Below are positions 34,276-48,199 of a stretch of DNA of 64,000 nt, piece by piece. The stretch lies in assembly GCA_903878085.1 (NCBI GenBank), contig CAIRGJ010000021.1, positions 1 through 64,000 of the forward strand, in the 5' to 3' direction. The notes under the pieces were generated by a model that saw only the letters and a list, made by a program, of their open reading frames with translations, ran no database searches and was not told the DNA's origin. Source of the DNA: an uncultured Hyphomicrobiales bacterium. Its GTDB lineage: Bacteria; Pseudomonadota; Alphaproteobacteria; Rhizobiales; Xanthobacteraceae. A program made the translations under genes and the position numbers. Positions within the stretch are counted from its first letter, which is position 1; every line of letters starts with the position of its first letter.

Positions 34276-36485
34276 TGCAGACGGTCCCGCTTCGAAGACT
34301 GGTGAGTGTGATCGGGCTTGCAGTCTCGATCATAACGGCCGTTGTGCTGCCATGCGGATATTTCGCCGTAGGCTACGTCAATATATCGGAGACATTGACA
34401 TTCAAGTCTCGATTGAATGCCGCGCGGGTCGCGCAGTACATCTATTCTCATAGTGAGATGTGGCAGTATCAGCGGCTGCGGCTCGACGAGTTGATCCAAT
34501 TGCCCGAGGCTTTCGAACAGCCCATTCAACAGAGGATCTACGACCAGGCCGGCCGTCTCGTGCTCGATCATGGTCTGCCAATGGCTGGCCCGATCATGGC
34601 GCGGCGCGTTCCGATTGTTGTTGCCGGAGCGGCCGTCGGTTCGCTGGTCGCCGAGACCAGCCTGCGGAAATTGGCGGCCGAGACTGGATTCGCCGCCGTG
34701 CTGAGCACATTGCTTGGGCTTTTCATGTATTTCGGCTTACGCATCCTGCCGCTGCGGGTGCTCGACCAAACGCTCGGCGAGCTAAACGAGACCCAACGCA
34801 GCCTGTTGACGCAGAACGAGCGTTTCGACGCTGCGCTGACGAACATGTCGCAAGGCATAGGCATGTTCGATGCCGACCATAAGCTTGTCATTTCCAATCG
34901 ACGCTTTGCGGAGATCTACCGCTTGCCGCCGGAAGAGGTCCTGACAGGTATGACGTCGAGAGATTTGATGGCGCTCGCGTTTAGAACAAGCAACCTGACG
35001 GATATTGACGCCGCGGGCACGCTTGCTATGCAGACGCGTATTGTTAGGGAAGGGCGGAATGGATCGTTCGTAGAACAACTGAGCGATGGCCGCAGCATCT
35101 CTATTACATATCGGCCGATGCCGGGCGGGGGTGTGGTTGGCACCTTCGAGGACATCAGCGAACGGCTTTCCAACGAGGAAAGAATCAGGCACCTGGCGCA
35201 CTACGACGCGCTTACAGACCTGCCCAACCGCGTGACGTTCTATGAGCGGATGGAAGCGGTCTTAAGTCGCCTGCGGCGCTCCGAATCCATCGCGGTTCTC
35301 AGTCTCGACCTCGACCATTTCAAGAGCGTCAACGATACGCTCGGACACCCCGTCGGCGACCTCTTGCTCAAGGAGGTGGCCGACCGCATGCGGAGCTGCG
35401 TGCGTGGCGAGGACATCGTGGCTAGGCTTGGCGGCGACGAGTTCGCCATCGTGCAGGTTCCATCGGAACAATCGCAGGATGTCAGTGCGCTCGCGGCGCG
35501 TCTGATCGAGATCGTTGGCGCTCCCTACGAACTGGACAAGCAGCAAGTGATCGTCGGCGCCAGTGTTGGTATCGCGATCGCGTCGAGCAATATCGACAAG
35601 CCGGATTCCCTCATGAAGAACGCGGATCTGGCGCTTTACCGCGCCAAGGCCGACGGCGGGAATGTTTATCGCTTTTTCGAACTCGAAATGGACGCCCGCA
35701 TGCAAGCGCGCCGCCTTCTCGAGCTGGATCTTCGCAAAGCGATCGTGAATAGCGAGTTCGAGCTTTACTATCAGCCGATTATCGACGTTAAATCCGGGCA
35801 GGTCACCAGCTGTGAGGCGCTCGTGCGCTGGCATCATCCCGAACGGGGGATGGTTGCGCCACTCGACTTCATCCCGGTTGCGGAAGAAACCGGCCTCATC
35901 GTGCCGTTGGGCGAATGGATCCTGCGGCAGGCTTGCACCGAAGCGGCGCGCTGGCCAAAGCAAGTGACAATTGCCGTGAACGTTTCGCCGGCCCAGTTCA
36001 AAAGCCGCAACCTGGTGCCAACGGTCATCAACGCGCTTGCCACATCCGGGCTATCGCCGGATCGGTTGGAGCTGGAGATCACTGAAATGGTGCTGATGCA
36101 GGATAATGAAGGAGCGTTCGCGACGCTTCATCAACTCCGCAATCTCGGGCTCAAGATCGCGATGGATGACTTTGGCACCGGCTATTCGTCGCTTGGCTAT
36201 CTGCGCAGTTTCCCATTCGACAAGATCAAAATCGACCAGTCGTTCATCCGCGATCTGCCGACGAAAGAAGACAGTGTTGCGATCGTTCGCGCCGTGGTTG
36301 GATTGAGCAGCAGCCTTGGCATAACGACCACCGCCGAGGGCGTGGAGACGAAGGAGCAACTCGCCAGCCTGACGGCGGAGGGCTGTACCGAATTCCAGGG
36401 TTTTCTCTTCAGCCGGCCGCAATCGGCGGCCGATACGCGGCGAATGCTCGGTCAGCTAAGCCCTAAGGCCGAGGCCGTCGCCTGA
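34272..36485 (+). CDS. Membrane-bound PAS-GGDEF-EAL protein
   Basis: A 737-residue c-di-GMP enzyme. An N-terminal membrane helix (about residues 10-36), a periplasmic segment and a second helix (about residues 135-158) are followed by a PAS_7-type domain (NMSQGIGMFDADHKLVISNR), a GGDEF domain with intact GGDEF at 387-391 and an RGED I-site at 378-381, and an EAL domain with CEALVRWHHP (EAL at 515-517) and DDFGTGYSSLGYL. Both cyclase and phosphodiesterase motifs look intact. It starts four bases inside the periplasmic-binding gene, so the binding protein probably feeds a signal to its periplasmic loop, as NspS does for MbaA in Vibrio. Confidence 0.93.
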   Translation: MMQTVPLRRLVSVIGLAVSIITAVVLPCGYFAVGYVNISETLTFKSRLNAARVAQYIYSHSEMWQYQRLRLDELIQLPEAFEQPIQQRIYDQAGRLVLDHGLPMAGPIMARRVPIVVAGAAVGSLVAETSLRKLAAETGFAAVLSTLLGLFMYFGLRILPLRVLDQTLGELNETQRSLLTQNERFDAALTNMSQGIGMFDADHKLVISNRRFAEIYRLPPEEVLTGMTSRDLMALAFRTSNLTDIDAAGTLAMQTRIVREGRNGSFVEQLSDGRSISITYRPMPGGGVVGTFEDISERLSNEERIRHLAHYDALTDLPNRVTFYERMEAVLSRLRRSESIAVLSLDLDHFKSVNDTLGHPVGDLLLKEVADRMRSCVRGEDIVARLGGDEFAIVQVPSEQSQDVSALAARLIEIVGAPYELDKQQVIVGASVGIAIASSNIDKPDSLMKNADLALYRAKADGGNVYRFFELEMDARMQARRLLELDLRKAIVNSEFELYYQPIIDVKSGQVTSCEALVRWHHPERGMVAPLDFIPVAEETGLIVPLGEWILRQACTEAARWPKQVTIAVNVSPAQFKSRNLVPTVINALATSGLSPDRLELEITEMVLMQDNEGAFATLHQLRNLGLKIAMDDFGTGYSSLGYLRSFPFDKIKIDQSFIRDLPTKEDSVAIVRAVVGLSSSLGITTTAEGVETKEQLASLTAEGCTEFQGFLFSRPQSAADTRRMLGQLSPKAEAVA

Positions 36486-39582: not shown

Positions 39583-40686
39583 CTATCCTGCGCAGATTCG
39601 CTTCAACGCCGCCCATTCTTTGGCATCGAGAAAGGGCGTTGTCGACTTTGCCCCAGCGACGCTGTTGATCGCGGCGACGCGGGCCTTGGTCTCGGGGTGA
39701 TCGAGCAGGATTGTCATGCCCGGCTCGGTGGCGCCGCCGATCTTGCCGAGCATGGTGGCGAGCGCATGCACATTGCCGCCGGCTCTGTTCATCAGCGCCG
39801 CGCCATAGGCGTCGGCGGCCGCCTCCGCCTCGCGGCTATAGGACGATTGCAGCACGGTCTTGGCCGCGATCACCACCGCGCCGCCGCCGACGAAATCGCC
39901 GAGCAGCATGCCGAACAGAAACGACAGGCCGCCGGCCTGCAGCACCGCCTTGGTGCCGTCGCGGTGCGCCACGTGGCCGATTTCGTGCGCGATCACGCCG
40001 GCCACCTCGTCGGCAGTGTCGGCTTTGTCGATCAGGCCGCGGAATACGTAGACCTGCCCGCCCGGCAGCGCCATGGCGTTGGCCTCGGTCCGGCGCACCA
40101 CGAAAGTCCGCAGCGTTTCCGGCAACGCCGCCGAGGCTTCCAGCCGCCGCACGATCTTGTCCAGCGCGGTACGCCCGGCTTTCTCGCTGTCGGCGCTGCC
40201 GCATTCGAACGCCGTGCCGCTGTTGCGGGGATCGAGCATGCCGCGCATCTGGATGTCGACCGCGTCGCCCAGCTTGCGGTCCACCGCCACCGGCAGCAGC
40301 GGCGCGATGCGCGCGGCCAGCGCCGGCACGCCGAACCAGGCCACCAGCAGCAGCGACGCCGTCGCCGCCACGCTCCAGCCGATGACGCTGCCACGCTGTC
40401 GCCGTTGTCTGGTTCCGGTGCGGTCGATATTGACGGCGCGCGCAACGACGGCGGCGGCGAATTCCGCGTCGAAGATTTCCAGCCGTTCCAGCACCGCGTT
40501 GCCGCGCCGGCCGAGCCGCAGCACATTGGCGGGCGCGGCCATTTCCTCAAGTTCGTCGTAAGTCCATGCGGCGAGCCACCGTCCGTCGCCGCCGGCGATC
40601 TGCAGCGCGTCCGGCGACAGCACCACAGCCACGTCGTGGCGCGCGCTGGTCATGCCGTCGAAATAGATTCCGGCGCCCGAAGTCAT
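39583..40686 (-). CDS. M48-family zinc metalloprotease
   Basis: A 367-residue membrane-associated protease. A soluble N-terminal segment, a transmembrane helix (about residues 102-125) and the M48 peptidase domain with His234-Glu235-x2-His238 (GVIAHEIGHVAHRDG) and a later Glu in AEAAADAYG are visible. It resembles HtpX/Ste24-like peptidases fused to a preceding regulatory part. It starts two bases after the YjgN-like gene stop, so the two are coupled; role in envelope quality control is inferred. Confidence 0.9.
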   Translation of the reverse strand: MTSGAGIYFDGMTSARHDVAVVLSPDALQIAGGDGRWLAAWTYDELEEMAAPANVLRLGRRGNAVLERLEIFDAEFAAAVVARAVNIDRTGTRQRRQRGSVIGWSVAATASLLLVAWFGVPALAARIAPLLPVAVDRKLGDAVDIQMRGMLDPRNSGTAFECGSADSEKAGRTALDKIVRRLEASAALPETLRTFVVRRTEANAMALPGGQVYVFRGLIDKADTADEVAGVIAHEIGHVAHRDGTKAVLQAGGLSFLFGMLLGDFVGGGAVVIAAKTVLQSSYSREAEAAADAYGAALMNRAGGNVHALATMLGKIGGATEPGMTILLDHPETKARVAAINSVAGAKSTTPFLDAKEWAALKRICAG

Positions 40687-40688
40687 TT

Positions 40689-41942
40689 TTAGTACCCGCC
40701 CACATTGAGCGCGTCGGCCAGGCCCTCGCCCACCGCCGAGCTAGCGCGTCCGGACGCTTTAACCTGGTCGAGCGCCGACAGGCCGGATAATTGCAGCGAT
40801 TCCATGCCCAACTGCCAGAGCGATAGCAGCGCCGTTGCGCGATACACCGTCGAGAAGCCGAGCGCGACGATCACATAGCCGCCGAGCAGAATGGCGGTCG
40901 CGGCGATTTCGCCGCCGACGCCAGTCTTGTCGCCGCCGGTCAGGAGCCCCATGGCGACCAGCGCCACGACGGCGAAAATCGCAGCAATGATGCAGAACAA
41001 AATCGAATAGCCGAGGAAGCGCATATAGGCGCCGTAAACTTGGCGCGTGCGCAGCGTCGAGCGCATCTCGATGTCGCCGAACCGCAAGCCCGACGACCAC
41101 CAGCGCAGCATCAGCGCCTGGAACGCCGGATAAAGCACGGCGGCAAGGAACAAAGCGGTGCTGCCCATCAGCATGGCGAACACCACGACGCCGCCGATGG
41201 CCGGATTGCTGCCTTCGATCTTGCTCATGACGTCGTCGCCGCCGGCGGCGGCTGCGTCGGCCAGCGCCTGCCAGTCCACCACCTCGATGAAGGCGCCAGC
41301 GGCGAAGGCCAGCGGTGCGACGACGGCGATCCACATCGGCAGGCCGCGCAGGAACAGCCGCCAGCCGGCGCCGTCGAAACGGCCGGCGAGGTCGCCGTAG
41401 TAAGTGTGGCGCATCTTGAAGCGTTCCAGGCTGGCGATCTGGAACGGATAGGCCAGGCCGAGCGTCAGGAAGGTGGCGAGCCACCACAGGCTGGCGCGCA
41501 ACGCATAGAGCCAGGCCGAACCGTCCTGGTGAAAGCGCAGGCCGCGATAGATCGTGCGCGTCAACCGGTAGCGCCGCGCGCGATAGACTGCGTATTGCCC
41601 GAGCACGCCGAGCGCCAGAAACGCGATCAGGCCGGACATCTGGCCGATGCTGCCTAGATCAAGCGCGGCCAGGAAAAACCCGGCATAGACCGGCACCAGA
41701 ATGGCGACCGCGACCAGGAAGCCGAGCAGCAGCTCCAGCGGCGTGCCGGTATATTCCAGCGTCTCGCCGGCGATTTCGGTGTTGGCCCACAAATAGCGGC
41801 GCACGTCGGTGGCCAGCCAGAACCGGTAGATGCCGAGTGTCACCATCAAGAGCAACGCGCCGCGCACCAGCAGCCGCCAGTAGGCCCGGCGGTTACCCAG
41901 AAATCTCACGCCGCCGATCTGCGTCGCCCCTGCGTCGGTCAT
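40689..41942 (-). CDS. YjgN family (DUF898) membrane protein
   Basis: A 417-residue polytopic membrane protein with the DUF898 features: an initial GGVRFLGNRRAYWRLL, TLGIYRFWLATDVRRYLW and, later, LTLGLAYPFQIASLERFKMR, with a repeat of the helical unit. YjgN-family proteins have no known function. ATG 41942 is chosen; the upstream TTG would add 12 residues rich in proline. Paired with the M48 gene downstream. Confidence 0.88.
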   Translation of the reverse strand: MTDAGATQIGGVRFLGNRRAYWRLLVRGALLLMVTLGIYRFWLATDVRRYLWANTEIAGETLEYTGTPLELLLGFLVAVAILVPVYAGFFLAALDLGSIGQMSGLIAFLALGVLGQYAVYRARRYRLTRTIYRGLRFHQDGSAWLYALRASLWWLATFLTLGLAYPFQIASLERFKMRHTYYGDLAGRFDGAGWRLFLRGLPMWIAVVAPLAFAAGAFIEVVDWQALADAAAAGGDDVMSKIEGSNPAIGGVVVFAMLMGSTALFLAAVLYPAFQALMLRWWSSGLRFGDIEMRSTLRTRQVYGAYMRFLGYSILFCIIAAIFAVVALVAMGLLTGGDKTGVGGEIAATAILLGGYVIVALGFSTVYRATALLSLWQLGMESLQLSGLSALDQVKASGRASSAVGEGLADALNVGGY

Positions 41943-41990
41943 GGCACGAGGGATAAAGGGAAGGGGCCGGGGAGGCAATCGCCGGCGGTG

Positions 41991-44321
41991 TTACGCGACC
42001 TTCTGCACTGGCGGCCCTTGGGCTTCGAGCCGGGCGTGCACATCGGCCGCGGTCATCGGTCGGCCGAACAGATAGCCCTGGCCTTCGTGGCAGCCTTGCG
42101 TCAGCACCAGGTTGCGCTGCTCTTCGGTCTCGATGCCTTCGGCAACCACGGTCTTGCCGAGGTTGGCGCCGAGCGTGGCAATGGCGCCGATGATCGCGCA
42201 GGCGTCGCGGCCGTCGCCAAGATCCGTGAGGAACGACTGGTCGATCTTGATCTTGTGGAACGGGAACTTGCGCAGGTAATTGAGCGACGAGTAGCCGGTG
42301 CCGAAATCGTCGAGCGACAATTTGACGCCCAGCGTGTTGAGCTGCTGCATGGTCGCCAGCGTGTTGTCGTTGTCCTCGAGCAGCAGACGCTCGGTGACTT
42401 CGAGTTCAAGTCGCGCCGGCTGCAGCCCGGACTTCGCCAGCGCCGCGACCACCTGGAGAGCCAGGCCCCGCTCCCTGAACTGAATCGGCGACAGGTTGAC
42501 GGCGACCTTGACGCCGTATGGCCAGTTATTGGCCTCGGTGCAGGCGCGGTTCAGCGCCCATTCGCCGAGCGCGACGATCAAGCCGGTCTCTTCGGCGATT
42601 GGGATGAACACTGAGGGCGGCACGTCGCCGCGCAGCGGATGCGTCCAGCGCATCAGCGCCTCGCAGGTCGTGATCTTGCCGGTGTGCAGGTCGATCAGCG
42701 GCTGATATTTAAGGTGCAACTGATCGAGCGCGAGCGCTTCGCGCAGGTCGATCTCGATGTTGCGGCGATCTTGCGCCGAATCTTCCATCTCGATGGCAAA
42801 GAAGCGGTGGTTGCCGCCGCCGCCGTTCTTGGCGGCATACAGCGCCATGTCGGCTTTCTTCAACAGGTCGTCGGGATCGACGCTGTCGTGCGGCGACATG
42901 GCGATGCCGATCGAGGCGCCGATGTCGATGCGATGGCCCTCGATCTCGAACGGCTCGTTGAGCGCGCGCGCCAGCCGTTGCGCCAGCGTCTTGGCGTCCT
43001 GTTGGCGCTCGGTGCCGATCTGCAGCACGACGAACTCGTCGCCGCCGAAGCGGGTGATCATGTCGGCCGGGCCGATCACGGCGGTGAGGCGGGCCGCGAC
43101 TTGCTTGAGCAGCTTGTCGCCGATCGGGTGGCCGAGCGTGTCGTTGATTGCCTTGAACCGATCGAGGTCGATCAAATGGATCGTGACATTGTTTTCGCGA
43201 CTTTTCCCGTCACCGAGCATGGCGGTGATTCGCTCGCGGAACTGGGTGCGGTTGGCAAGCCCGGTGAGTTCGTCGAACCTGGCGAGATGCGCGATGCGCT
43301 CTTGCGCGCGTTTGCGGTCGGTGACGTCCTCGAGAATGACGACCGAGCCGCCGCCCGGCATCATGCGGCGCGACACCGCGATGGTACGGTCGCCGTCGGG
43401 CGAGGTCAGGAACTGGTCGAGCGTTTGCGACCGCAGCCCGGCGAGCAGGTCGTTGATCACCTGCTTCGCGCTTTTTGATTTGTGGTTACCGGCGCGGATG
43501 CTGTGGCGCACCAGCTGCGCGATCCGCATGCCGACGCGCACCGGCGCGTGCTGCAGATGCAGCAGTTCGAGGAAGCGTTCGTTCCAGACCTGCAGACGGT
43601 CCTGCGGATCGAGCATGCACAGACCGTGCGACATGTTGTTGAGCGCGACGTCGAAGCGGTTGGCCTGTTCCTCGAAGCGCGCCGCCAGCGTCGCCTCCTT
43701 GCGCGTCATGGTCAGTGCTTGAACGATGATGTTACGGGTGCTGAGCGTGATATCGGTTATGCCATACATGAACAGCAGCACCACGACGCCGAGCGCGTTG
43801 TGCACCCACTCGGGATATATGAGCAGCGCCACGACCATTGGCAGCGTGCTGAAAGTCAATTGGCCGAACGCGATCAGGGGCCGCCCCGCGTTGCGGCCCG
43901 AAATTGCCGCCGCGTAACCGGCCGTGGAGGTCGTGACGGCCATCTGCAACGAAGCATCCACGGCGGGGTTGAGCGTCATCCAGCACAGCAGCCCGAGAAG
44001 AGCGGCGAACGCCCAGGCGCCATATTCGTAGACGTGTTCCCACAGCTTGGTGGCCGTGAGCCTCTGGCTCTGCTTGCTCTTCTTGTAGAGCAGCGCGGAC
44101 GCGACGCGCAGCATGCCGGTTGCCAGGATGGCGATCGAAACGGCCATGATCCAGGAGTCGCCGACGCGCAGCGCGACCGCCACGCCGATGATCGAGCAGG
44201 CGACGGCGCCCACGACCAGCGACGCGATCGGCGCGAACAAAGACTCAATCAGTGCGGCGCGGATTTCCGTTGGAAGCCCAGCGTCAGCTTTGCGAGTCTG
44301 CAATAGCTTCTTGATCAGCAT
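41991..44321 (-). CDS. Membrane PAS-GGDEF-EAL protein
   Basis: A 776-residue c-di-GMP enzyme. The N-terminal ~190 residues hold six hydrophobic segments (a multi-helix membrane sensor), followed by a PAS domain (NMSHGLCMLDPQDRLQVWNE), a GGDEF domain with motif at 426-430 and an EAL domain with CEALMRWTHP (EAL at 554-556). The I-site position reads GPAD, so feedback inhibition is probably absent, unlike the relative at 34272. Both catalytic motifs look intact. ATG 44321 is preferred to the TTG at 44369. It is divergent from the RpfF-like gene across 386 bases. Confidence 0.93.
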   Translation of the reverse strand: MLIKKLLQTRKADAGLPTEIRAALIESLFAPIASLVVGAVACSIIGVAVALRVGDSWIMAVSIAILATGMLRVASALLYKKSKQSQRLTATKLWEHVYEYGAWAFAALLGLLCWMTLNPAVDASLQMAVTTSTAGYAAAISGRNAGRPLIAFGQLTFSTLPMVVALLIYPEWVHNALGVVVLLFMYGITDITLSTRNIIVQALTMTRKEATLAARFEEQANRFDVALNNMSHGLCMLDPQDRLQVWNERFLELLHLQHAPVRVGMRIAQLVRHSIRAGNHKSKSAKQVINDLLAGLRSQTLDQFLTSPDGDRTIAVSRRMMPGGGSVVILEDVTDRKRAQERIAHLARFDELTGLANRTQFRERITAMLGDGKSRENNVTIHLIDLDRFKAINDTLGHPIGDKLLKQVAARLTAVIGPADMITRFGGDEFVVLQIGTERQQDAKTLAQRLARALNEPFEIEGHRIDIGASIGIAMSPHDSVDPDDLLKKADMALYAAKNGGGGNHRFFAIEMEDSAQDRRNIEIDLREALALDQLHLKYQPLIDLHTGKITTCEALMRWTHPLRGDVPPSVFIPIAEETGLIVALGEWALNRACTEANNWPYGVKVAVNLSPIQFRERGLALQVVAALAKSGLQPARLELEVTERLLLEDNDNTLATMQQLNTLGVKLSLDDFGTGYSSLNYLRKFPFHKIKIDQSFLTDLGDGRDACAIIGAIATLGANLGKTVVAEGIETEEQRNLVLTQGCHEGQGYLFGRPMTAADVHARLEAQGPPVQKVA

Positions 44322-44707
44322 CGGTGCCCCGGTCCCCTGATGCTGACGAAGGTATTGGAGGAAGTTCAACAGGTCGCAAACGGATCGGCCTATCGCGGGG
44401 CTTGATTAATTAGTCCCGAACGTCGCGTGACACTTTTGCTAAAATTCGCGGGACTGCGTTCAGGGGGCGATAACCATAAGCGTTAGTCATCATCACGATC
44501 CGTTATCTCGGAACTCCTGTTCTCACATAGCGCGTGCCGGCAGCATTTCGTTGTCGTGGTTAATTCACGCACGATGCGCATTTTATCCGATGCCATAAGG
44601 AGATTCCGTACGTCGCGCCGTGCCGCACGCGTTTGGCGCATGGGTGTCAGCGCACCTCTTTCGTTGAAAAATCGTCAACACTCTGTTAAGGTAAAATAAT
44701 AGTTAAT
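44322..44707. other. Divergent intergenic control region
   Basis: No gene seen in these 386 bases. It is AT-richer than its surroundings toward the right end (44640-44707). TAAAAT at 44692-44697 would serve as a -10 element for the RpfF-like gene, giving almost no leader before GTG 44708; TTGAAA at 44664 is too far for a standard spacer. No palindromic repeat was identified. Confidence 0.4.
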
Positions 44708-45739
44708 GTGAGTACAGAAATGTCGATGTATGCGTATGCAGACGTTTCTTTCCCCGTGAAGCGCGGGGCCTTCGCGGTGCCACTGGCGCCGATGATTACG
44801 CAGCGGCCGCTTGTTGATCTCAAAGTGCTCGACCGCAAAGCGGCCGAGCCCAAGGTCATCGATCTCAAGAAAATTACAGACGCGCGCCGGTTATTCGAGC
44901 TGGAGCAGCTCGAAGTCAATTTCGAGCAGGAACTCGGCGCGCTGTGGACCTTCATGCGGCCGCGCGGGCGGGCGAGCTACAATCCCGACTTGCTGGAAGA
45001 CTTCCATGCCTGGCAACGCGGCATCGTCGCGTCCTTCGCGGACCGCGCCAGCGAGCTGAAATATCTGCTGCTCGGCTCGCGCACCCCCGGCGTGTTCAAT
45101 CTCGGCGGCGACCTCAATCTGTTCGCCGACAGAATCCGCGAGCGTGACCGCGCCGCGCTGATCGCCTACGGCGAGTCCTGCGTGCGCATCCTCGACCGCA
45201 ACATGGCAACGCTCGGCCTGCCGATGATCACCATCGGGCTGGCGCAAGGCGACGCGCTCGGCGGCGGCTTCGAGTCGCTGCTGTCGTTCAACATCATCAT
45301 TGCCGAGAAGCAGGCCAAGTTCGGCTTCCCGGAAGTCATGTTCGGCCTGTTCCCGGGCATGGGCGCCTACAGTCTGGTGTCGCGGCGCTGCGGCGCGGCC
45401 TTCGCCGAGGAAATGATGCTCAGCGGCCAAACCTACAGCGCCGACGAGATGAAGGAAGCCGGTCTGATCCACATGGTGGTCGAGCCGGGGCAGGGCATCG
45501 AAGCGGCGCGCGACTACATGGTGCGCAACAAGCGCCGCCATAACGGCAACCGCGCCGTGTTCCAAGCGGGCCATGTCGTCAATCCGGTGCCGCTCGCCGA
45601 ACTCGACCGCGTCGTGCAGATCTGGGCCGCTGCCTGCCTGCAACTGAGCGATCGCGATCTCAAGGTGATGCAGCGTCTGGTCGCGGCGCAGGACCGCCTC
45701 AACGGCACCGCGCAAGGCGGCCTGCAAGCCGCGGAATAG
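44708..45739 (+). CDS. RpfF-like crotonase, candidate DSF-family signal synthase
   Basis: A 343-residue enoyl-CoA hydratase/isomerase-fold protein. It matches the RpfF subgroup rather than beta-oxidation hydratases: FNLGGDLNLF near residue 130, GDALGGGFES (Glu189), FGFPE (Glu209) and LFPGMGAYS. The two glutamates are exactly 20 residues apart, as are Glu141/Glu161 of Xanthomonas RpfF. RpfF dehydrates 3-hydroxyacyl-ACP and releases cis-2-unsaturated fatty acids used as diffusible signals; that activity here is inferred. About 55 residues precede the usual start. GTG 44708 is chosen; ATG 44720 and 44726 are alternatives. Divergent from a PAS-GGDEF-EAL gene and followed by a response regulator. 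Confidence 0.85.
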   Translation: MSTEMSMYAYADVSFPVKRGAFAVPLAPMITQRPLVDLKVLDRKAAEPKVIDLKKITDARRLFELEQLEVNFEQELGALWTFMRPRGRASYNPDLLEDFHAWQRGIVASFADRASELKYLLLGSRTPGVFNLGGDLNLFADRIRERDRAALIAYGESCVRILDRNMATLGLPMITIGLAQGDALGGGFESLLSFNIIIAEKQAKFGFPEVMFGLFPGMGAYSLVSRRCGAAFAEEMMLSGQTYSADEMKEAGLIHMVVEPGQGIEAARDYMVRNKRRHNGNRAVFQAGHVVNPVPLAELDRVVQIWAAACLQLSDRDLKVMQRLVAAQDRLNGTAQGGLQAAE

Positions 45740-45908
45740 CGAAAACCACAGCGCGGCAGCCATCGCGACGAACCTCGCGATGGCATTGAACTGCCCAAAT
45801 ATGGGGAGTGCGCCATGCCGGGCTCCTTTGCCCGGTGCATCGGCCGATTGCTGGCGGCCGCGAACGCAAGCGTGATAGCTTGGCCTGCCGCAACACCCCG
45901 AGGATTTC

Positions 45909-46580
45909 GTGCCCAGCGCCAAGTCCAAGAAGCCCGTCCGCATTGCGATCGTTGAAGACGACCTGGCTTCGCGCAAGCTGTTGGTCTCGACGTTGCAAGC
46001 CGATCCGGACTACCTGGTGGTCGCGGAATTCTCCGAAGGCAAGGCCGCGGTCGCCGCCATTCCCCATCTGGCGCCCGACATAGTGCTGGTCGATCTGGGG
46101 CTTCCGGATATTTCCGGCATCGACGTGATCCGCAAGCTGAAGGCGCTGGATTCCGAATGCAACGTGCTGGTCGTCACAACCTTTGGCGACGAGGCGACGG
46201 TGACCTCGGCTTTGGAAGCCGGCGCCGACGGCTATCTGCTGAAGGGCACTGTGCTCGAGGAACTGCGGCGCGACATCCGCTTTTTGCAGAGCGGCGGATC
46301 GCCGCTGTCGCCGATGGTCGCGCGCAAGCTGTTGAACAAGCTGCAATCGAACGCGACCGCCGCCAAACCGGACGCCACTGGCGATACCACATTAACGCGG
46401 CGCGAGCAGGATATCCTGGAGATGATCGCCAAGGGCTTCTCCTACACGGAGACCTCAAAGATCTGCGGCATCGCCGCGGCGACCGTGCACAGCCACCTTA
46501 AAAGCATTTACCGCAAGCTCGAGGTCCATTCGAAGACCGAAGCGGTCTATGAGGCGCGCCGCCGCAGCCTCATCTACTAG
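45909..46580 (+). CDS. NarL/FixJ-family response regulator
   Basis: A 223-residue two-component regulator: receiver with acidic pair at 17-18 (VEDD), phospho-acceptor Asp62 (VDLGLPDISG) and Lys112, then a LuxR-type helix-turn-helix (LTRREQDILEMIAKGFSYTE, then IAAATVHSHLKSIYRKL). GTG 45909 follows CGAGGA. It ends tail-to-tail with the histidine kinase at 46577; the two stop codons share CTAG. It is very probably the partner of that kinase, and 169 bases downstream of the RpfF-like gene. Confidence 0.92.
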   Translation: MPSAKSKKPVRIAIVEDDLASRKLLVSTLQADPDYLVVAEFSEGKAAVAAIPHLAPDIVLVDLGLPDISGIDVIRKLKALDSECNVLVVTTFGDEATVTSALEAGADGYLLKGTVLEELRRDIRFLQSGGSPLSPMVARKLLNKLQSNATAAKPDATGDTTLTRREQDILEMIAKGFSYTETSKICGIAAATVHSHLKSIYRKLEVHSKTEAVYEARRRSLIY

Positions 46581-48199
46581 GGCGCCGCGGCGCCATTCGG
46601 CACCGTCAGTTCGATGCGCACCGCCGTACCCTGTCCCGGCGACGAGTCGATCGAAAGCGTGCCGCCGATCGAAATCGTGCGGACGCGTTTGCGCATGTTC
46701 GACAGACCGCGCCCCTCGGAGGTTGCATCAGCCGCATTGAAGCCGCAGCCGTCGTCCCTGACGGTAATGACGACCTGCGATTCTGGCTCGCCGTAATCCG
46801 CCGTTACCGTGACAGTCGTCGCTTTCGAATGATGCAGCACGTTGCTGAGCGCTTCCATCAGGATCAGCTTGATCGACAGTGCGTCGCGCGCCGTCAATCC
46901 CGCGATCTTTGGCAGCTCGCTGACATGCCACAGCAGCTCGATGCCGCTCAGTTCGATGCCGCTGCCCATACGATGCCGGACATTGCCCAGCACCAGGTTG
47001 AGATCGCCGTCCACCGGTTCGGCGCTGTCGACCAGGAAGCGAAGCTCCATCAGGATTTCGCCGATCCGGCGTTTGACGTCGGTGACATTGACGTTCGTGA
47101 TGGTGAACTGCGCAAGCAAAGTTGCGAGGCTCGCGCCGATGCTGTCATGCATATCGGCCGACAGCTTTTGCCGCTCGTCGATCGCGGCATTGATCACCGC
47201 GAGCTGGTTCTGCTGGCCGGCCTGTTCGAGCCTGTGCACGAAGGCCACCGCCGCGATCATCGCCGCCGTCAGCACAAACCAGCACAGCCCGAGGACATAG
47301 AAGAATCCGATATAGCGCGCGCGAAGATAGTCGAGGTCGTAGCCGACGCTGGCGTAGAACGGGGTCGTTGGCGATACCATGAAAGTGCCGATGCGCGTGA
47401 CCTCGTCGAGGTTGCTGCGGCCATAGAAGGTGCCTTTCTTTTCGCCCGCGAGAACGCGCTCGTAGACCAGCGGGATTTTCGGCACCGCCGCGCCGTAACC
47501 GATCTCGCCGCTCAGCGAGCGGATTCGCACGATACCGTCTTTACCGGTCAGACCCGCCATGCCGTGGTCGCTGAGTTTGAGTTTTTCATAAAGCTCGATG
47601 AAATGCGAAAGCCGGTATGACGCCAATACCACGCCGTAGAACGTGCCGGTTTCATCGCGTAGCGGCCGCGAAAACTGGATCGACCATTCGTTGGTCAAGA
47701 GCCCCTGCATCGGCGCGCTGATGTAGAGTTTGGATTCGTCCGGGTTCTCGGCATGAATTAGAAACGTATTGCGGTCCTTCATCGAAATCTTGGGGACGGA
47801 ATCGGTGCGGGCGCTGGCGATCAGGATGCCGTTTCGGTCGATGATAGCCGGCCCGATCATCGACGTGTTCAGCGCATAACGTGTCAGTAGCCGATGCAAT
47901 TCCGGCTCTCGCGCGGCGGAGACGTCCTGTTCCGGGATTTGCGCGGCTAGCCGCGTGAGGATAGCGTCGACATTGGCCGCGACGTCGTCGAAGGTCGTCA
48001 TCAGGATTTGCGCGGTATTCTCGGTCTCGCGGTAGAGCTCCTGTTCGGCGCCGCGTTTGAAATGGGCGCCGCCGAGCAGACACAACGCCAGCACGAAAGC
48101 GGAAAACCCCGCGCAGACCAGCGCCATCGAGGCGCGTGAAAACCGGCCGAAAAAGCGTCTCACTTCGGTTACCCGTCGTCTTTGAGGTGACATACCCAT
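46577..48199 (-). CDS. Membrane sensor histidine kinase (HisKA_3 type)
   Basis: A 540-residue kinase: transmembrane helix about residues 25-45, a large periplasmic PDC/Cache-like sensor of about 250 residues, a second helix (298-320), and a cytoplasmic HisKA_3 dimerisation domain with phospho-acceptor His351 (KLSADMHDSIGAS), then an ATPase domain (EALSNVLHHSKA, DDGCGFN). HisKA_3 kinases partner with NarL-type regulators, exactly the adjacent convergent gene. The sensor probably binds a small extracellular molecule. ATG 48199 is chosen; ATG 48193 would be two codons later. Confidence 0.9.
   Translation of the reverse strand: MGMSPQRRRVTEVRRFFGRFSRASMALVCAGFSAFVLALCLLGGAHFKRGAEQELYRETENTAQILMTTFDDVAANVDAILTRLAAQIPEQDVSAAREPELHRLLTRYALNTSMIGPAIIDRNGILIASARTDSVPKISMKDRNTFLIHAENPDESKLYISAPMQGLLTNEWSIQFSRPLRDETGTFYGVVLASYRLSHFIELYEKLKLSDHGMAGLTGKDGIVRIRSLSGEIGYGAAVPKIPLVYERVLAGEKKGTFYGRSNLDEVTRIGTFMVSPTTPFYASVGYDLDYLRARYIGFFYVLGLCWFVLTAAMIAAVAFVHRLEQAGQQNQLAVINAAIDERQKLSADMHDSIGASLATLLAQFTITNVNVTDVKRRIGEILMELRFLVDSAEPVDGDLNLVLGNVRHRMGSGIELSGIELLWHVSELPKIAGLTARDALSIKLILMEALSNVLHHSKATTVTVTADYGEPESQVVITVRDDGCGFNAADATSEGRGLSNMRKRVRTISIGGTLSIDSSPGQGTAVRIELTVPNGAAAP

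Follow-up and report, generated by a model that had tools for sequence, protein, structure and literature searches.

A candidate DSF-type module of an RpfF-family crotonase and a membrane PAS-GGDEF-EAL protein in Pseudolabrys-related Alphaproteobacteria

Does an RpfF-type crotonase gene lying back to back with the gene of a membrane-bound PAS-GGDEF-EAL protein form a signalling system of the diffusible signal factor (DSF) type in an alphaproteobacterium? The question is raised by positions 41991-48199 of a 64,000-nucleotide stretch of contig CAIRGJ010000021.1 (hereafter the window), which belongs to a 4.4-Mb genome (G000) whose nearest named relatives are Pseudolabrys and Hyphomicrobiales/Rhizobiales metagenome-assembled genomes. 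Four genes follow one another in this region, encoding a PAS_7-GGDEF-EAL protein (minus strand), an RpfF-type crotonase (plus strand), a NarL-type response regulator (plus strand) and a dCache histidine kinase (minus strand). An original prediction had read all four as one DSF-type module, and the genes that it named are all present where it placed them. Comparison with related genomes leads us to conclude that a two-gene module is probable, consisting of an RpfF-family synthase and a membrane PAS-GGDEF-EAL receptor; what the original prediction had observed is confirmed and its interpretation is partly supported. The features of the two genes are listed below.

44720..45739, plus strand: RpfF-family crotonase, putative DSF-type synthase, 339 amino acids (PRK08788, solved RpfF 3m6m, tree, conserved start)
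44708, plus strand: alternative crotonase start (GTG), four codons upstream of the ATG at 44720, giving 343 amino acids
45272..45274, plus strand: catalytic glutamate E189 (GGGFE), from alignment to RpfF chain 3m6m
45332..45334, plus strand: catalytic glutamate E209 (PEV), from alignment to RpfF chain 3m6m
41991..44321, minus strand: membrane PAS-GGDEF-EAL protein, putative DSF receptor and cyclic di-GMP (c-di-GMP) enzyme, 776 amino acids (Pfam, adjacency, co-occurrence, complementarity with RpfC)
43683..44321, minus strand: six-helix membrane domain with an invariant RNAxRP motif (predicted helices; no Pfam and no PDB fold match)
43299..43643, minus strand: PAS_7 domain (Pfam, shifted to the 776-residue numbering)
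42816..43280, minus strand: GGDEF domain with an intact active-site motif and without the I-site arginine (Pfam and alignment)
42057..42749, minus strand: EAL domain, catalytic motifs present (Pfam and alignment)
44322..44719, no strand: divergent intergenic region of 398 bp between receptor and crotonase

An RpfF-family crotonase

By its sequence the crotonase is an RpfF-family protein. It scored 356.6 bits against NCBIfam PRK08788 (cut-off 177), and the top four chains in a sequence search of the PDB were 7zq7 (184 bits), 3m6m (RpfF, 183), 6dgn (RpfF, 165) and 5fus (165). The PDB names of 7zq7 (crotonase/enoyl-CoA hydratase family protein) and 5fus (putative enoyl CoA hydratase) are generic, and we take both to be RpfF proteins. 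Below these four the best crotonase reached 64 bits; 5wyb, presumably DspI, scored 60, PaaF (4fzw) 56 and isohexenylglutaconyl-CoA hydratase (4zu2) 43, and the 16 other crotonase matches within the own genome gave at most 61 bits each. The two glutamates that the original prediction had described as spaced as in RpfF, E189 and E209 in the 343-residue numbering and 20 residues apart, indeed correspond in the alignment to the glutamates in the GGGFE and PEV motifs of chain 3m6m, which we assume to be E141 and E161 of Xanthomonas RpfF. Over the 136 RpfF-like rows of an alignment that includes some loci entered twice, glutamate and aspartate occur in 134 and 2 rows at position 189 and in 133 and 3 rows at position 209.

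The crotonase tree agrees with this assignment. Out of its 135 rows, 130 RpfF-like rows, the window's crotonase among them, were split from five hydratases of the own genome with a branch support (SH-aLRT) of 99, in a tree made by a quick method, with a long root branch and with some of the fetched loci not entered. Eight rows were left out of it, namely the hydratases L007 and L008, in which the two catalytic glutamates are missing at the aligned positions, and L204-L209, among which five duplicate other rows. Among 20 RpfF-like rows from other classes, 57 columns are conserved at 90% or more, and the window's protein matches 47 of them; 33 of the 57 are common to at most one of five own-genome hydratases, and 25 of the 33 are matched. 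Ordinary enoyl-CoA hydratases (PaaF, mitochondrial enoyl-CoA hydratase, AtuE-type) resemble the protein in their crotonase fold, and most of the own-genome copies in the alignment have the two glutamates, but these enzymes stay at or below 64 bits, compared with 165-184 for the four RpfF-like chains, and fall on the opposite side of the tree. An AlphaFold model of the crotonase, built with 17 close sequences, had a mean predicted local distance difference test score (pLDDT) of 54.6 and was too weak for use.

Linkage to the membrane protein and alternation with RpfC

At an E-value of 1e-30 the crotonase was found in 18 of 149 genomes of the family, 55 of 397 of the order and 24 of 385 of the class (G000 and G273 being counted in both the order and the class draws). 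We scanned neighbourhoods of about 8-10 kb, shorter at contig ends, with heuristic gene calls and with domain profiles built in this analysis, and distinguished type A loci, where the membrane PAS-GGDEF-EAL gene stands beside the crotonase gene, from type B loci, which carry an RpfC-like hybrid kinase gene and a REC-PAS-GGDEF-EAL gene. The type A genes were adjacent and divergent in all 22 distinct Pseudolabrys-type loci (29 were fetched, of which seven were contig duplicates; a single-sequence contig scan gave 17, of Pseudolabrys type only). Of 18 other genomes of the order, 17 also have the two genes side by side, convergent in eight, with the receptor first in five and with the synthase first in four. 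The contig of the 18th (L131, G335) stops 612 bp beyond the crotonase, with the membrane domain found on another contig; that of L129 (G376) stops within the receptor, ahead of the membrane domain. In all, the two genes are neighbours in 39 distinct type A loci and in all four possible orientations, so that the neighbourhood is conserved in related genomes. One named strain, Pseudolabrys sp. Root1462 (L061), carries the type A pair.

The window's genome has 19 EAL matches, and with about 4,200 genes assumed we estimate that a single chance adjacency of a crotonase and an EAL gene would be about a 1% event; because this event recurs in 39 distinct loci, the pairing exceeds chance. The two genes are also absent together: all six crotonase-negative genomes of the same genus lack the membrane domain even at an E-value of 1e-6, three of these genomes being only 83-86% complete. 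Conversely, a membrane domain of at least 221 bits occurs in 18 genomes of the order, the window's included, each of which carries the crotonase, and the next best score is 173 bits; this gap counts for less than it seems, since it is partly built in by an A1 profile that came from linked proteins, and the co-absence within the genus is the fairer test.

We then compared these genomes with those that carry RpfC. Among 66 crotonase genomes (12 of Pseudolabrys type, the window's included, and 54 others of the order), 35 have an RpfC sensor, 30 have the membrane protein (one in part) and one has neither, and none of the 66 has both RpfC and an ortholog-level membrane protein. The 31 genomes that are free of RpfC comprise the 12 of Pseudolabrys type, 17 with a membrane domain of at least 221 bits, G376 with its cut receptor, and G273. 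In the 35 RpfC genomes no membrane domain exceeded 143 bits and nine had weaker matches; in the 12 RpfC-type genomes of the family there were matches in two, of 148 and 53 bits. The RpfC sensor profile found nothing in 60 crotonase-free genomes picked from the order draw, the 35 out of 66 serving as positive control.

The RpfC genes are themselves mostly close to the synthase gene. Type B was seen in all 12 family loci from other genera, and in the 35 RpfC genomes among the 54 of the order the gene lies within 3.4 kb in 31 and elsewhere in four (L139, L143, L144 and L146); 29 of the 31 close loci have a REC-PAS-GGDEF-EAL gene and two a REC-PAS-kinase gene. Of 23 loci of the class outside the order, 16 have RpfC nearby, three meet a contig edge and four show none. 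The sensors of the window's class (60) match those of other classes of the phylum (13) in a profile comparison (probability 100, E 1.3e-60). According to the part of PMC5391125 that was available, Arg15, Asp17, Ser18, Glu19 and Gln22 are essential for DSF sensing by Xanthomonas RpfC; the R-x-D-x-E pattern around these contact residues is present in 49 of the 60 sensors of the class and in 9 of the 13 others. On the crotonase tree the type A label needs three changes, at least two of which are forced by starred branches. The pairing foreseen in the original prediction for an alphaproteobacterial version is supported, and neither of the two genomic outcomes named there as refutations, branching with ordinary enoyl-CoA hydratases or lack of a conserved neighbourhood, occurred. 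The picture needs to be wider than one unusual gene order, given the 55 of 397 genomes of the order with RpfF and the RpfC homologue in 35 of the 54 besides the window's. That RpfC and the membrane protein interchange beside the same synthase gene suggests a receptor type not described before.

Several variants of the RpfC cassette were observed on the way. In the rpfF-rpfC cassettes of L044-L055 and of 29 order loci between L134 and L174, a REC-PAS-GGDEF-EAL gene takes the place of the REC-HD-GYP gene of L236, L241, L242 and L252. A REC-PAS-histidine kinase gene accompanies rpfF-rpfC, with no c-di-GMP enzyme, in L172, L175, L183, L185-L193, L195, L196, L198 and L199, mostly outside the order. 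L198 (G559) has one rpfF-like gene flanked by two RpfC-like hybrid kinases, and the RpfC sensor match of L147 (G524) is split across two frames by a frameshift or an assembly error.

The membrane PAS-GGDEF-EAL protein as candidate receptor

As foreseen in the original prediction, the divergent partner has six predicted helices and no FI domain. The six long helices precede the PAS domain (pLDDT mostly 70-92, in a model with a mean of 65.5 and a poor PAS part) and, judged from this model, probably cross the membrane. Across 16 diverse members of the membrane domain 11 columns are invariant, RNAxRP included; no Pfam family matched this part at an E-value of 0.001, and its model had no PDB fold match at 0.001 or better. 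The GGDEF, EAL and DDFGTGYS motifs are intact and the I-site arginine is lost (GPAD), and a Pfam scan found no kinase, receiver or Hpt domain in the protein. In a receptor tree with long branches, the 35 rows of linked receptors fall into a single clade, separate (SH-aLRT 80) from 12 unlinked paralogues, which were the top scorers among 93 genomes. As an observation apart from the locus, domains of the six-helix RNAxRP type, which no Pfam family covers, are widespread in the order as N-terminal sensors of GGDEF-EAL proteins of about 780 residues and of open frames of about 400 residues (L273-L284 and more), mostly in genomes without rpfF.

In the module that we propose, the crotonase would dehydrate 3-hydroxyacyl-acyl carrier protein (acyl-ACP) and release a cis-2-enoic fatty acid, the production of which is established chemistry of the RpfF family in the available parts of PMC4504480 and PMC6361424. 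The acid would partition into the membrane, enter or bind the six-helix RNAxRP domain or the PAS_7 domain, and switch the GGDEF and EAL domains, so that c-di-GMP would change in one step. Relatives would use the same synthase family with an RpfC hybrid kinase and a REC-PAS-GGDEF-EAL or REC-PAS-kinase regulator, one receptor type replacing the other. The sequences show the family membership of the synthase, the linkage and joint occurrence of the two genes, the mutual exclusion of the two receptor types and the intact catalytic motifs; we infer what signal is made, where it binds, which way c-di-GMP changes and what behaviour is regulated.

Compared with known DSF systems, the membrane protein seems to stand in for RpfC rather than to be related to RpfR. 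The RpfF-RpfR system of Burkholderia and Cronobacter is similar in that an RpfF-family synthase adjoins a PAS-GGDEF-EAL protein (accessible part of PMC4504480), RpfR-like neighbours being found in L246, L247 and L249, and in that one protein with the PAS-GGDEF-EAL order would be receptor and enzyme at once. RpfR is soluble, however, and its FI domain binds RpfF (as far as PMC6361424 was available), whereas the window has a six-helix membrane domain in place of the FI domain and a divergent gene order. The RpfF-RpfC-RpfG system of Xanthomonas shares the synthase superclade, a c-di-GMP-type output and a membrane sensor next to the synthase; in contrast, the window has no kinase, receiver or HD-GYP domain, and no homology between its membrane domain and the RpfC sensor could be detected (probability below 2%). 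The RpfF-RpfC-(REC-PAS-GGDEF-EAL) cassettes of relatives (12 of 12 family loci from other genera, 29 of the 54 order loci besides the window's) have synthases that rank with the nearest ones beyond type A, and they also end in GGDEF-EAL, but they pass through a phosphorelay via RpfC where the window has a single putative receptor-enzyme.

A number of observations weigh against the proposed module. The crotonase scores 211.9 bits on the RpfF equivalog NCBIfam NF053515, below the cut-off of 550, a cut-off that we judge narrow because only 3 of 398 genomes of the phylum pass it and because the crotonases beside the RpfR-like genes of L246, L247 and L249 score 181-188. Aspartate replaces E189 in two type A rows (L179 and L180). 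The membrane protein lacks the FI domain of RpfR, having the six-helix domain at its N-terminus, and the RpfR PAS pocket pattern (S169, N172, Y183, R187 and N202 in the part of PMC6361424 consulted), visible in L246, was not seen by eye in the window's PAS_7 domain, remote PAS alignments being unreliable; at an E-value of up to 1, no RpfR chain was among the PDB hits of the PAS segment. Homology of the membrane domain to RpfC was not detected, with profile comparison (hhalign) probabilities of 0.3-1.6%, or 0.5-0.7% with the sets split by class. A more divergent version of the domain occurs in 93 further genomes of the order, of which nine carry RpfC and the majority have no crotonase, so that the domain alone is not DSF-specific. 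The 148-bit match noted above is in a family genome of RpfC type (G047), and G273 (L178) has an rpfF-like gene with neither receptor in its genome and an EAL gene 6 kb away. Finally, all five contact residues are present in only 14 of the 60 RpfC sensors of the class (7 of the 13 others), Q22 often being M.

Flanking genes, alternative explanations and significance

The two remaining genes of the region, which the original prediction had included in the module as a two-component pair, are the following.

45909..46580, plus strand: NarL/MadR-type response regulator, accessory or unrelated neighbour (domain matches; close to the crotonase gene in four of the 22 Pseudolabrys-type loci)
46577..48199, minus strand: dCache-HisKA_3-type sensor kinase, accessory or unrelated neighbour (HisKA_3 match under the cut-off; in the same four Pseudolabrys-type loci as the regulator)

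They point towards each other and do not form an operon. Four of the 22 Pseudolabrys-type loci have them near the synthase and no other type A locus of the 17 does, so that they are no core part of the module. On the other side, M48 peptidase and DUF898 genes (39583-41978 of the window) adjoin the receptor gene here and in L040, L041, L058, L059, L067 and L068, and were not seen in the remaining Pseudolabrys-type loci. A second EAL-domain protein is encoded at 35727-36419 (plus strand), inside an open frame of 737 residues about 6 kb from the receptor gene. Regarding gene starts, the ATG at 44720 is the likeliest for the crotonase and is kept in all six aligned sequences (the window and five relatives), and the start of the PAS-GGDEF-EAL protein is best set at 44321 and not at the TTG at 44369, the N-terminus being conserved among relatives. 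Immediately upstream of the crotonase, the block 44683-44707 is conserved in six aligned Pseudolabrys-type sequences (the window and five others) and may be promoter-like. An inverted-repeat scan of the region gave one pair, within the receptor gene.

Four other explanations have to be weighed. The crotonase could act on acyl-ACP or acyl-CoA in lipid homeostasis, with the PAS-GGDEF-EAL protein reading the state of the membrane or of the acyl chains of the same cell, as might be expected of a predicted membrane protein and of enzymes that also cleave acyl-ACP promiscuously (RpfF, in the part of PMC6361424 at hand). We consider this unlikely, as RpfC, mostly with the DSF-contact pattern, accompanies this synthase family in the order more often than the membrane protein does, and RpfC is found in none of the 60 synthase-free genomes. 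Alternatively, the system could be a true DSF system in which the PAS-GGDEF-EAL protein is only the output and another, unlinked protein senses the acid. The occurrence of the membrane domain family in genomes that lack RpfF speaks for such a role, yet RpfC genomes have no ortholog-level copy and the copy-bearing genomes that were searched have no RpfC, a mutual absence that fits replacement of the receptor itself, and no third gene was seen in every type A neighbourhood; an output-only role is in our view quite improbable.

The four-gene version, with the DSF signal carried by the NarL-type regulator and the PDC/dCache kinase, draws on the pair adjoining the synthase in the window and lying near it in L040, L041 and L058, but is very improbable: in 18 of the 22 Pseudolabrys-type loci and all 17 other type A loci the pair was not seen around the synthase, within flanks of mostly 8-10 kb (one side being short in L067, L068, L129 and L160). 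A gene order due to chance or inheritance, without function, seems hardly credible to us either. Synteny would suffice for it within one genus, and a genome with 19 EAL matches offers occasions for it, but adjacency is kept across all four relative gene orders and both genes are jointly missing in the 6 of 6 genomes; in its strong form this explanation is refuted by the synteny.

The two-gene DSF-type module is thus the reading that we retain. Beyond it, we regard as about evenly balanced the broader proposal of a further class of DSF receptor, namely a single membrane protein with a six-helix RNAxRP sensor coupled directly to GGDEF-EAL and swapped with RpfC more than once beside one synthase family in Alphaproteobacteria. 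Among the matches listed in the open-access literature there was no paper on an alphaproteobacterial rpfF system, which is weak evidence of absence, and the available part of a survey of acidophiles, Acidiphilium included, places DSF in Leptospirillum and Acidithiobacillus (PMC9040811). If our reading is true, a considerable fraction of the genomes in the window's order (55 of the 397 drawn) would encode DSF-type synthases, a receptor acting through a phosphorelay would have given way in evolution to one membrane protein that is itself a c-di-GMP enzyme, and these loci would offer a natural experiment on the sensing of fatty-acid ligands in the membrane.

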